Part shown: one piece after another, positions 40,107 to 53,321 of the stretch
How positions within the stretch are numbered: the first letter of the stretch is position 1
How the letters are laid out: each line of letters begins with the position of its first letter
NCBI RefSeq assembly: GCF_003935895.2
Contig: NZ_CP054058.1
Location: 1 to 64,000 of the forward strand
DNA from: Scandinavium goeteborgense
GTDB taxonomy: Bacteria > Pseudomonadota > Gammaproteobacteria > Enterobacterales > Enterobacteriaceae
DNA: 64,000 bases
Direction of reading: 5' to 3'
The notes under the pieces: model-generated
The model's database searches: none
What the model was told of the DNA's origin: nothing
What the model saw: only the letters and a program-made list of their open reading frames with translations
Program-made: the position numbers and the translations under genes

Positions 40107-40112
40107 CGATGT

Positions 40113-40187
40113 GCCCGGCGGTGCTATCGCTTGCCGGGCCTACAAAACCTCGATCACGTAGGCGCGATTAGCGAAGCGCCATCGGGC
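40113..40187. repeat. BIME (two REP sequences) at the gltS/glpK joint
   Basis: REP 1, GCCCGGCGGTGCTATCGCTTGCCGGGCCTAC without its first base at 40114-40143, and REP 2, GTAGGCGCGATTAGCGAAGCGCCATCGGGC at 40158-40187, face each other across 14 bp. The pair begins 7 bp after the gltS stop and occupies most of the joint. Confidence 0.8.
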
Positions 40188-40194
40188 AGAAACA

Positions 40195-40224
40195 AAAAGG
40201 CCGGGATTATCCCCGGCCTTTTTT
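40195..40224. terminator. Bidirectional terminator between gltS and glpK
   Basis: AAAAAGGCCGGG / CCCGGCCTTTTTT with loop ATTATC. A-runs and T-runs on both sides let it terminate gltS rightward and glpK leftward. Confidence 0.93.
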
Positions 40225-40244
40225 ATGGACTTAAACAATCAGGC

Positions 40245-41750
40245 TTAATCGTGATCTTCCCACGCCATCGCGCGTTTCACCGCTTTCTGCCAGCCGCTGT
40301 AACGGTAGTTACGCTCGGTGGTTTCAATCCCCGGACGGAACTCACGTTCAATCACCGCTTTTTCCTTCAGCTCATCCAGATTTTGCCAGAAGCCGACCGC
40401 CAGCCCGGCGAGATACGCCGCGCCCAGCGCCGTGACTTCACGCACTTCCGGACGCTCAACACGGGTGCCGAGAATGTCTGACTGGAACTGCATCAGGAAA
40501 TTATTGGCAACCGCACCGCCGTCCACGCGCAGGGCGTGCAGACGAATACCGGAGTCGGCCTGCATCGCTTCCAGTACGTCGCGCGTCTGATAGGCGATGG
40601 ATTCGAGGGTGGCGCGAATAATATGATTCGAGTTCACGCCGCGCGTCAGACCGAAGATTGCGCCACGAGCATACGGGTCCCAGTACGGCGCGCCGAGGCC
40701 GGTAAATGCCGGAACCACGTATACGCCGTTGGTGTCGTTGACCTTCGTCGCAAAATATTCGGAATCGAACGCGTCGTTAATCAGCTTCATTTCGTCACGC
40801 AGCCACTGAATGGATGCGCCCGCCATGAATACCGCGCCTTCCAGGGCGTAGTTCACTTCGCCGCTTGGGCCGCAGGCGATGGTGGTCAGCAGGCCGTGTT
40901 CTGACTTAACAGCGGTTTCGCCGGTGTTCATCAGCATAAAGCAGCCGGTACCGTAGGTGTTTTTCGCCATCCCTTCTTTGACGCACAGCTGGCCGAACAG
41001 CGCCGCCTGCTGGTCACCGGCGATCCCGGCGATAGGAATACGGGTGCCGCCTTTACCGCCGATGTTGGTCTGGCCGTACACTTCGGATGATTTGCGCACT
41101 TCTGGCAGCATCGCGCGCGGGATATCCAGCGCCTCGAGCATTTTGTCGTCCCAGTCCAGCTTGTGAATATTGAACAACATGGTGCGCGAGGCGTTGGTGT
41201 AATCGGTCACGTGCACGCGGCCCTGGGTCATACGCCAGATAAGCCAAGTGTCGACGGTGCCGAACAGCAGTTCGCCGCGTTTTGCCCGCTCGCGCGCGCC
41301 TTCCACGTGGTCGAGGATCCACTTCACTTTGGTGCCGGAGAAGTACGGGTCAATCACCAGCCCGGTTGTGCTGCGCACGTAGTCTTCCATGCCGTCACGC
41401 TTGAGCTGTTCGCAGATATCCGCCGTACGACGGCACTGCCAGACGATGGCGTTATAAATCGGCTTGCCGGTTTCTTTATCCCAGACGATGGCGGTTTCAC
41501 GTTGGTTGGTGATGCCGATAGCCGCCACTTCATCGGAACTGATGTCGGCTTTAGCCAGCACTTCTATCAGGGTGGAACTCTGGGAAGCCCAGATTTCCAT
41601 CGGGTCGTGCTCAACCCAGCCTGGCTTAGGATAGATTTGTTCGAATTCGCGCTGTGAAACGCTGACGATATTGGCGTCGTGATCCATGACAACGGCGCGG
41701 GAGCTGGTTGTACCCTGGTCGAGTGCAACGATGTATTTTTTGTCAGTCAT
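40245..41750 (-). CDS. glpK: Glycerol kinase GlpK
   Basis: Phosphorylates glycerol to sn-glycerol 3-phosphate, trapping what enters through GlpF; inhibited by fructose-1,6-bisphosphate and unphosphorylated EIIA-Glc in E. coli. The 501-residue product starts at ATG 41750 ([10 protein letters not shown]). FGGY signatures are present: phosphate-binding DQGTTSSRA near residue 10, the glycerol-site NQRE, and C-terminal [23 protein letters not shown]. The EIIA-contact segment near 475 ([12 protein letters not shown]) is intact. It is 22 bp after glpF. glpX, normally the next gene, is instead about 10.5 kb away. Confidence 0.98.
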
Positions 41751-41772
41751 AATGCTATGTCCCGTAGTCAGA

Positions 41773-50888: not shown

Positions 50889-51003
50889 GTACACCACCTA
50901 AGTTTTTTTCCTGGGGATGATTAAAACGGTAAACCGCCCCGCTTGTCAAAAAGAGACTACTTCAGGGTAAACTACGCGGCATTACGATGATAAGGAATTT
51001 TCC

Positions 51004-51423
51004 ATGACCCTACAGCAGTGGTTATTTTCGATTAATGGGCGTATTGGACGCCGTGACTTCTGGATTTGGATTGGCATTTGGGTGCTGGCGATGGTTGTGC
51101 TGTTCACCCTCGCGGGCAGCGGTTTATTGAATCTGCAAACCGCTGCGTTTGCGCTGGTGTGCCTGCTGTGGCCGACGGCGGCGGTGACCGTTAAGCGCCT
51201 GCACGATCGGGGTAAATCAGGTATTTGGGCGCTGTTGATGATCCTCGCGTGGATGCTTCTCGCCGGAAACTGGGCGGTGCTGCCGGGCGTCTGGCAGTGG
51301 GGCGTGGGCCGCTTTATTCCGACCCTGATTATGGTGATGATGCTTATCGACCTGGGCGCGTTTGTGGGAACCCAGGGCGAAAATAAATATGGAAAAGAAA
51401 CGATTGCCGTTAAATACCGCTGA
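51004..51423 (+). CDS. yiiR: YiiR, DUF805 inner-membrane protein
   Basis: Small integral membrane protein of unknown function. The 139-residue product has about four hydrophobic helices and the family motifs FSINGRIGRRDFWIW at the N-terminus and VKRLHDRGKSG in the first cytosolic loop. Its stop codon abuts the last base of the convergent fpr with no intervening nucleotide. Confidence 0.92.
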   Translation: MTLQQWLFSINGRIGRRDFWIWIGIWVLAMVVLFTLAGSGLLNLQTAAFALVCLLWPTAAVTVKRLHDRGKSGIWALLMILAWMLLAGNWAVLPGVWQWGVGRFIPTLIMVMMLIDLGAFVGTQGENKYGKETIAVKYR

Positions 51424-52170
51424 TCACCAGTAGTGTTCGGCAGTCATATGGCCCGGCCGACGACGCAAATGTTTGGTCATCTGCCGGGAATCTTTCAGCA
51501 ACTGCTGGGTATCTCGCACCATCTGCGGGTTTCCGCACAGCATGACATGGCTGTTGTCGGTGGTCATCGTCAGGCCCACGGCCTCTTCCAGCGCTCCGCT
51601 TTCAATAAGCGCCGGCACGCGGCCGGTTAACGAGCCGGACACTTCCTCTCGGCTCACCACGGTGTGAATACGGAGTTTCCCTTCGTACTGTTTTTGCAGT
51701 TCCAGCATCAACGGTAAATAGCTTAAATCGTGGGCATAGCGTACCGCGTGCACCAGCACCAGGTTGTTAAAACGCTCCAGATTTTTCCCTTCCTGCAGAA
51801 TCGACAAGTACGGGCCGAGCGCCGTGCCGGTCGCCAGCATCCACAGCGTATCGCAGTCCGGGACTTCATCCAGTACAAAGAAACCCGCCGCTTCGCTGAC
51901 TAATTGCACTTCATCACCAGGTTTGAGCGCCGCCAGACGCGGACTGAGTTTGCCTTCCGGGACCGTCACCAGATAAAACTCGAGGTCAGGATTATTGGGA
52001 GCGTTGACGTAGGAATAGGCGCGCTGGACGCGCTCGCCGTCAATTTCCAGCCCAAGCTTGGTGAATTGTCCGGCCGTGAAGGGGTGAACGGGGGCATGAA
52101 CGGTGAGGCTGAACAGGGCGTCTGTCCAGTTCTCGACTTTGGTAACTTTACCTGTGACCCAATCCGCCAT
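51424..52170 (-). CDS. fpr: Ferredoxin/flavodoxin-NADP+ reductase Fpr
   Basis: FAD enzyme that passes electrons from NADPH to flavodoxin and ferredoxin, supporting biotin, methionine and radical-enzyme chemistry; SoxRS-inducible in E. coli. The 248-residue product has FAD-binding RAYSYVNAPNNPD near residue 50, NADP-binding LATGTALGPYLSIL near 112-125 and CGNPQMVRDTQQLL. The C-terminal Tyr-Trp stacks on FAD. It is 95 bp downstream of glpX, with a 9-bp hairpin (52223-52246) between. Confidence 0.98.
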   Translation of the reverse strand: MADWVTGKVTKVENWTDALFSLTVHAPVHPFTAGQFTKLGLEIDGERVQRAYSYVNAPNNPDLEFYLVTVPEGKLSPRLAALKPGDEVQLVSEAAGFFVLDEVPDCDTLWMLATGTALGPYLSILQEGKNLERFNNLVLVHAVRYAHDLSYLPLMLELQKQYEGKLRIHTVVSREEVSGSLTGRVPALIESGALEEAVGLTMTTDNSHVMLCGNPQMVRDTQQLLKDSRQMTKHLRRRPGHMTAEHYW

Positions 52171-52265
52171 GATCTTCTCCTCGCTACGTTGATAGTCCTA
52201 TCTTCGCTACCAGGAGGAAAGATTTCCAGCCCCGAAAGGCTGGAAAGCTCTATTGATCAAATAAA

Positions 52266-53276
52266 TCAGAGGATGTGCAGCTGGATTTCCGGATCTTTAC
52301 GGTCGAGATAGTGAATCGACTGAATGCGGCGGATGGTGCGCGATTTGCCGCGGATCATCAGCGTTTCGGTGGTGGCGATATTGCCTTTGCGGGTAATGCC
52401 GTCCAACAGGTCGCCTTTAGTGATACCGGTGGCGGAGAAAATCACGTTGTCACTGCGGGCCATTTCGTCGAGGCGCAGCACTTTCCCGGCTTCGATACCC
52501 ATTGCCGCACAGCGCTCAAGCTCGTCTTCACCCATGCGGCGGTTTTCCGGCGAGTCACCTTTAACGTCATGGCGTGCCAACAGGCGGCCGTGCATATCGC
52601 CGTCAAGCGCACGGATAACGGCGGCAGAGATTACGCCTTCTGGCGCGCCGCCAATGCCGTACAGCACATCGACTTCGCTGTCCGGCATGCAGGTCAGAAT
52701 CGAGGCCGCCACGTCGCCATCAGGAATAGCAAAAACGCGCACGCCAAGCTTTTGCATATCAGCAATCACCCGATCATGGCGCGGTTTGGCAAGAATGGTT
52801 ACGGTCAACTCTGACAGTGGCTTATCCAGCGCCTTCGCCACATTACGTAAATTCTCTTCCAGCGGCAGATTGAGGTCGATAGCGCCCTTTGCGCCAGGAC
52901 CAACAATCAGCTTTTCCATGTACATATCGGGTGCATTCAGGAAGCAGCCTTTATCGCCCACCGCCAGCACGGCCAGCGCGTTCGCCTGGCCCATCGCGGT
53001 CATGCGGGTGCCTTCAATCGGGTCCACAGCGATATCGACCGCATCACCGCTGCCGGTGCCGACCTGCTCACCGATAAACAGCATTGGGGCTTCGTCAATT
53101 TCGCCTTCGCCAATCACGATGGTGCCGTCGATATTGACCTTGTTGAGCATGATGCGCATGGCATTCACGGCGGCACCGTCGGCGATATTTTTATCACCGC
53201 GACCCAGCCATTTGTAACCGGCAAGCGCGGCGGCCTCGGTTACACGCGAAAATTCGATGGCAAGTTCTCGTCTCAT
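52266..53276 (-). CDS. glpX: Fructose-1,6-bisphosphatase class II GlpX
   Basis: Mn2+-dependent FBPase of gluconeogenesis, known as the third gene of the E. coli glpFKX operon. The 336-residue product has the lithium-sensitive phosphatase motifs GEGEIDEAPMLFIGEQVG, DIAVDPIEGTRMTAMGQ and later YGIGGAPEGVISAAVIRALDGDMHGRL. Here it has no glpFK upstream: its start lies 45 bp after the recG stop on the same strand, with no intrinsic terminator between. It may be transcribed by read-through of the spoT-trmH-recG operon. Confidence 0.98.
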   Translation of the reverse strand: MRRELAIEFSRVTEAAALAGYKWLGRGDKNIADGAAVNAMRIMLNKVNIDGTIVIGEGEIDEAPMLFIGEQVGTGSGDAVDIAVDPIEGTRMTAMGQANALAVLAVGDKGCFLNAPDMYMEKLIVGPGAKGAIDLNLPLEENLRNVAKALDKPLSELTVTILAKPRHDRVIADMQKLGVRVFAIPDGDVAASILTCMPDSEVDVLYGIGGAPEGVISAAVIRALDGDMHGRLLARHDVKGDSPENRRMGEDELERCAAMGIEAGKVLRLDEMARSDNVIFSATGITKGDLLDGITRKGNIATTETLMIRGKSRTIRRIQSIHYLDRKDPEIQLHIL

Positions 53277-53321
53277 AACATACTCGTTTTGGAAGCTAAG
53301 AATGGCGCGCAGCCCGGAAGG

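Follow-up and report, generated by a model that had tools for sequence, protein, structure and literature searches.

How did genes that form one run in Escherichia coli come to stand elsewhere, and in permuted order, in Scandinavium goeteborgense? The stretch that raises this question is the first 64,000 nucleotides of contig NZ_CP054058.1 (hereafter the window), in which the genes from sbp to zapB lie between gltS and recG. The E. coli run (NZ_CP053245) reads pfkA-sbp-cdh-tpiA-yiiQ-yiiR-yiiS-uspD-fpr-glpX-glpK-glpF-zapB-rraA-menA; compared with it, the window block is cut between glpX and glpK, and its outer ends, zapB and sbp, face one another. The sbp-to-zapB block, some ten housekeeping genes and about 9 kb net, is relocated and permuted at recG/gltS, and we favour, with a probability of roughly three in four, the explanation that two overlapping inversions spanning the replication origin (oriC) in a common ancestor produced this arrangement. 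An earlier reading of the window from its letters alone (the original prediction) had already described both the gene order and the relocation; the former is borne out by protein family and DNA matches and the latter by the E. coli run. Gene identities were assigned with NCBIfam and Pfam, and zapB was identified by direct reading:

38904..40106, + strand: gltS, left flank of the insertion site (TIGR00210, 655.7 bits)
40107..40244, no strand: gltS/glpK joint between convergent genes, with a terminator-like hairpin and a repetitive extragenic palindromic (REP)-like repeat
40245..~41750, − strand: glpK, part B of the block (NF000756, TIGR01311)
41773..42642, − strand: glpF, part B (TIGR00861, MIP channel; DNA match to E. 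coli glpF)
43049..43288, + strand: zapB, part B (read directly; DNA match to the E. coli zapB region)
43343..45562, − strand: Wzc/Etk-like gene, export trio in the zapB/sbp joint
45519..46046, − strand: Wzb/Etp-like gene, export trio in the zapB/sbp joint
45953..47098, − strand: Wza-like gene, export trio in the zapB/sbp joint
47362..53276, no strand: part A as a whole (sbp, cdh, tpiA, yiiQ, yiiR, fpr, glpX), from family matches
47362..48456, + strand: sbp, part A
48550..49305, + strand: cdh, part A
49412..50179, − strand: tpiA, part A
50289..50897, − strand: yiiQ, part A
51004..51423, + strand: yiiR, part A
51424..52170, − strand: fpr, part A
52266..53276, − strand: glpX, part A
53277..53321, − strand: recG/glpX joint, 45 bp, without the promoter-like element of unrelocated glpX leaders
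53322..55403, − strand: recG, right flank of the insertion site (NF008163, 1256 bits)

Beyond recG follow trmH and spoT, both on the − strand. The glpK reading frame extends to 41858, and its family match starts near 41747. Of 40 matches listed, 35 lie on the REP-like repeat of the gltS/glpK joint.

An old arrangement shared by a group of genera

The gene-order comparison across genera that the original prediction had proposed shows the arrangement to be old and to mark a group of genera; it is not peculiar to the window genome, as had been supposed. Among the named loci (the best 80 of 576 from a GlpX protein search) glpX lies behind recG in 25 and behind glpK, as in E. coli, in 53. Of the remaining two, one breaks off where its contig stops (L018), and the other (L044, Escherichia sp. 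MOD1-EC7003) is a 6.3-kb contig with glpK-glpF-zapB reversed relative to glpX, by local inversion or misassembly. When 295 genomes of the family were sampled evenly, at least 25 had recG beside glpX (20 with an unbroken glpX/recG match and five with the genes 0.1 to 4.3 kb apart); this is a lower bound, the matches listed coming from 201 of the 295. The genera concerned include Klebsiella, Raoultella, Kluyvera, Pseudocitrobacter, Pluralibacter, Trabulsiella and Superficieibacter, and a full-text literature search, taken at the level of its result listings, returned nothing on this rearrangement or on glpX behind recG. The tpiA/cdh spacer of relocated genomes carries lineage-specific inserts of ~1 to >7 kb (L021, L032, L036, L045, L014, L063).

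The old site is closed. The original prediction had expected pfkA and rraA to adjoin elsewhere in the same genome, and they do: the match to rraA runs to C2:4461450 and that to pfkA starts at C2:4462219, leaving a gap of ~0.77 kb. Four close relatives (L010 to L013) have 0.71–0.76 kb of similar filling (placed in L098 at about 7450-8220), and in most other relocated genomes the gap is <100 bp. The pfkA/rraA scar is found within 1.7 kb in 24/25 named relocated genomes and in 22/24 of a second, overlapping set, the exceptions being L039 (= G370) and G136, where the scar has been rearranged further. Both genes now converge, on a shared hairpin in most scar joints examined. At the target, the supposed original adjacency of gltS and recG holds in 10 of 16 unrelocated stretches and fails in the other six, which have no gltS there and xanP next.

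The new joints also recur. In 13 of 14 relocated genomes zapB and sbp are 38–159 bp apart, the fourteenth being the window with its 4-kb insert, and where they adjoin the old sbp leader is retained after zapB. Sequence like the end of the old glpK/glpX spacer begins within ~30 bp of the recG stop codon in Kluyvera and Pseudocitrobacter; in other relocated genomes the likeness is confined to the last bases before glpX.

Three gene sets give trees on which the arrangement changes state 2 to 4 times (13 to 17 times when shuffled), and these trees differ in where they place Superficieibacter; in the recG-spoT tree the relocated genomes do not form one group. It is conceivable that the arrangement arose twice at the same cut sites, once in Superficieibacter and once in all others, as the source-flank tree (with Kosakonia) and the joint tree both place Superficieibacter outside the main relocated group, where parsimony requires two changes. 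The joint tree (50 genomes) unites 24 of 26 relocated genomes in one clade (support 86/100) and sets the two Superficieibacter beside Citrobacter and Escherichia (support 89/98). However, two origins would require the recurrence of identical joints, the block tree pairs Superficieibacter with relocated Pluralibacter, and a single clade of all 26 is not rejected (approximately unbiased test, p 0.109), the deep branches being short. Superficieibacter G307 has the relocated order gltS-glpK-glpF-zapB-sbp, recG near glpX and the scar, which makes a single origin the simpler reading and two origins an unlikely one. The relocation also supplies a rare gene-order marker for a group of Enterobacteriaceae genera in which the deep branching is poorly resolved.

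Two inversions about the origin or a circular intermediate

We propose that the events took place in a common ancestor of Klebsiella, Raoultella, Kluyvera, Pseudocitrobacter, Pluralibacter, Trabulsiella and probably Superficieibacter. A first inversion would have cut recG/gltS and glpX/glpK, creating the joints recG-glpX and gltS-glpK, and a second would have cut pfkA/sbp and zapB/rraA, creating zapB-sbp and pfkA-rraA and turning the oriC segment back. The net effect would be to carry the tpiA/glp region between arms and to leave the block, rejoined zapB-to-sbp, at the mirror position at recG/gltS. Gene order, joints, polarity, distribution and mirror position are observed; that each step was an inversion, and the order of the steps, we infer. 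A five-block model yields a single path of two inversions, through one intermediate, and one excise-and-reinsert event also reaches the derived order (a second such row is that event again, with the remainder of the chromosome treated as the mobile piece). The four disrupted adjacencies are explained together, as had been predicted. The two routes use the same two double cuts in opposite order; position is what separates them.

Positions were taken from assemblies in which recG, glpX or the scar, and mnmG were all seen, with the start of mnmG assumed to mark oriC and every assembly treated as circular (G136 was excluded because its scar is rearranged again; the set includes one scaffold, G094, and one 2.4-Mb contig, G158). 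Each of the 11 relocated assemblies of chromosome scale has the recG joint on one arm and the scar on the other. Both lie 72 to 176 kb from where mnmG starts, and the point midway between them is no more than 0.79 per cent of assembly length away from mnmG; in the window genome the distances are 83 and 80 kb. Of 12 unrelocated assemblies, nine likewise have recG and glpX on different arms, with midpoint offsets of at most 1.24 per cent. Strands in E. cloacae, Leclercia and Citrobacter R56, compared with K. pneumoniae and the window, show that the moved block kept its direction relative to the replication fork, since it was inverted during the move.

The same region has been rearranged again in several relocated lineages. 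Trabulsiella G398 carries zapB-glpF-glpK-gltS-xanP-yicH at a distance of 139 kb from mnmG on the other arm. This was considered as a leftover intermediate and rejected: gltS, xanP and yicH moved together with the block genes and the scar is closed, which indicates a later move (loci L196, L197 in G398; L199, L200 in the draft G205, in which glpK is split between contigs C9 and C11, next to other reading frames at the break). In Pseudocitrobacter faecalis (L175, L176) pfkA adjoins the yicJ-like gene near gltS, with rraA at another place. In G136 mnmG lies between rraA (94 kb away) and pfkA (82 kb away on the other side), and the two genes are oppositely oriented. Both are read as further cross-origin rearrangement. 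G158, with part A and glpK-glpF-zapB-sbp 30 kb apart in opposite sense, was likewise rejected as an intermediate and is read as a later local inversion. Yet another break-up is seen in genus g152 (G232, G412, G339), where pfkA is far from rraA and glpX, and glpX is ~45 kb from rraA. Within the window, the two genes at 21339-25064 face the gene at 35379-37145 in the opposite sense, and from ~10 kb farther away, compared with L175; one of the two genomes has undergone a local inversion, or gained an insertion, next to tRNA-SeC (25354-25448).

Mirror position about oriC, kept fork direction and repeated cross-origin change in this region together favour the two inversions, which the original prediction had listed as an alternative. 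It had preferred a circle: the zapB-to-sbp block excised, closing pfkA/rraA, and reinserted at recG/gltS after opening between glpK and glpX. Such a single event would yield the order, and both the zapB/sbp joint and the scar are as it predicts. It would also require that a circle carrying tpiA, fpr and zapB persist and reinsert without visible homology, and it predicts neither the mirror position nor the kept direction, which by a rough, uncomputed estimate would both arise by chance about 2 per cent of the time. None of the 14 unbroken scar matches among the 295 genomes is from a genome that lacks the block at its new position, as all come from genomes with recG/glpX, and the family matches include no recombinase among the block genes, no dedicated search for recombinases or attachment sites having been made. 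On this balance the circle is an improbable route, and the earlier preference for it is not supported.

Several observations weigh against the two inversions. E. coli E69 (G109) and G142 have recG and glpX on the same arm, and in G258 glpX is 1.9 Mb from mnmG; the pre-event layout therefore depends on the relatives chosen. (G109 and G258 have large rearrangements of their own.) The symmetry is loose in several assemblies, for example 72 versus 147 kb in G361, and gene-dosage selection could steer a circle to reinsertion in that zone. Neither double cut was shown to have a repeat common to both its ends, no paired or statistical test having been made; REP-like sequence is present in several of the spacers. 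An intermediate with only the first inversion appears in 0/25 named and 0/24 second-set genomes, pfkA/sbp is kept together with recG/glpX in none of the relocated genomes examined, and these likewise hold no intermediate of the circular route. A first-inversion intermediate of this age may be extinct.

The E. coli order is the ancestral state because outgroups carry it. Among 15 outgroup and other genomes it is clear in five (G018 and G222; G181, G229 and G238 without sbp beside pfkA) and less complete in three (G217, G214, G235), fpr/glpX has been broken independently in four (G130, G170, G184, G257), and the rest are scattered (G193), relocated (G158) or have too few matches (G068). That the window order is ancestral and the E. 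coli order derived might be suggested by how widespread the former is among the named loci, but it is contradicted by these outgroups and by the Buttiauxella, Cedecea and Atlantibacter loci at the tree base, which have the E. coli order; this reading is very improbable, and the original prediction was right to treat the window order as the derived one. In two Buttiauxella, Cedecea and Atlantibacter the glp region lies ~50 kb from recG on the same contig, on the spoT side, and a same-arm ancestor model with the region on the gltS side of recG was set aside for this reason. An assembly chimera has next to no chance of being the explanation, as identical joints occur in many separate assemblies, several of them chromosome-scale.

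The glpX leader and the export trio

The glpF, glpK and glpX genes form an operon in E. coli. The relocation separated glpX from glpFK and in most relocated genomes set it directly after recG, at a distance of ~50 bp. All 55 unrelocated loci have, ~43 bp before glpX, an element within two bases of TGTGCTAAACT that looks like an extended −10 promoter; the strict motif fails in seven of the loci, each with one or two mismatches. Comparison of 42 distinct relocated leaders found it in only 6 of the 36 joints <100 bp long (Kluyvera, two Kluyvera-like genomes and Pseudocitrobacter) and in all 6 joints with 0.14 to 4.3 kb between recG and glpX, although the latter represent only three lineages (Superficieibacter, G136 and L013/G165). 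In L013 and L180 (Enterobacteriaceae bacterium 89) the element is kept behind a 4.3-kb insert between recG and glpX. Elements before genes with unchanged neighbours served as controls and were kept in 54/55 unrelocated and 23/25 relocated cases for fpr, 54/54 and 25/25 for tpiA, 40/40 and 26/26 for yiiQ, 54/54 and 14/14 for glpF, and 47/47 and 18/18 for sbp (a fixed 20-base element in a wider stretch). For the named genomes of the joint tree the glpX element implies six losses if regain is barred and four changes if it is allowed.

Loss of the element where the two genes abut suggests that glpX is probably transcribed from the spoT-trmH-recG operon in most relocated genomes. In the window no terminator-like site was found on the − strand across 52900-55600, which takes in the joint between recG and glpX. 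We lean slightly toward the proposal that in most of the Klebsiella-Kluyvera-Pluralibacter group glpX, the gene of a fructose-bisphosphatase, has become the distal gene of the spoT-trmH-recG unit and that its putative promoter decayed repeatedly because read-through from recG made it redundant, the element being kept where DNA intervenes. The proposed operon switch is a natural experiment with many replicates, old against new neighbours and with or without a spacer, and it is the part of this history that is open to test at the bench.

The export trio of the window (43343-47098), divergent wza/etp/etk-like genes, is a lineage-limited insert separate from the relocation, since in the sister genome L010, the closest relative, 44 bp separate zapB from sbp and no such genes lie there. 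L013 (124 bp between zapB and sbp) lacks them too; L011 and L012 carry similar genes next to sbp. The kinase-like protein is 67 to 70 per cent identical to those of L011 and L012, over partial length, and 44 to 49 per cent identical to two other copies in its own genome, and its scores reach the curated cut-off of neither the Wzc model nor the Etk-type model.

Relation to known rearrangements

Movement of chromosomal segments through a circular intermediate is a known concept, and the locus resembles its outcome in the permuted order and the new end-to-end joint. It differs in that no recombinase, flanking repeat or free circle was noticed, and such movement would leave the mirror position unexplained. 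Compared with the glpFKX operon of E. coli the genes are the same, and glpF and glpK stay together in both; here glpX is split off, mostly after recG, and the promoter-like element has been lost in most such genomes.

The type of rearrangement that we favour is already known. Within species, inversions symmetric about oriC are described as predominating among large rearrangements, and they can be iterative (PMC9584773). Such replication-associated rearrangements share with the present case cuts on opposite arms, similar distances from oriC, repeated events and a kept fork direction (PMC9584773). Its survey concerns genomes within species, whereas the present case would be an old pair of overlapping inversions, seen across genera, whose net product is a small permuted block. 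It would show cleanly how the excision and permutation of a small block can be mimicked by a pair of symmetric inversions.

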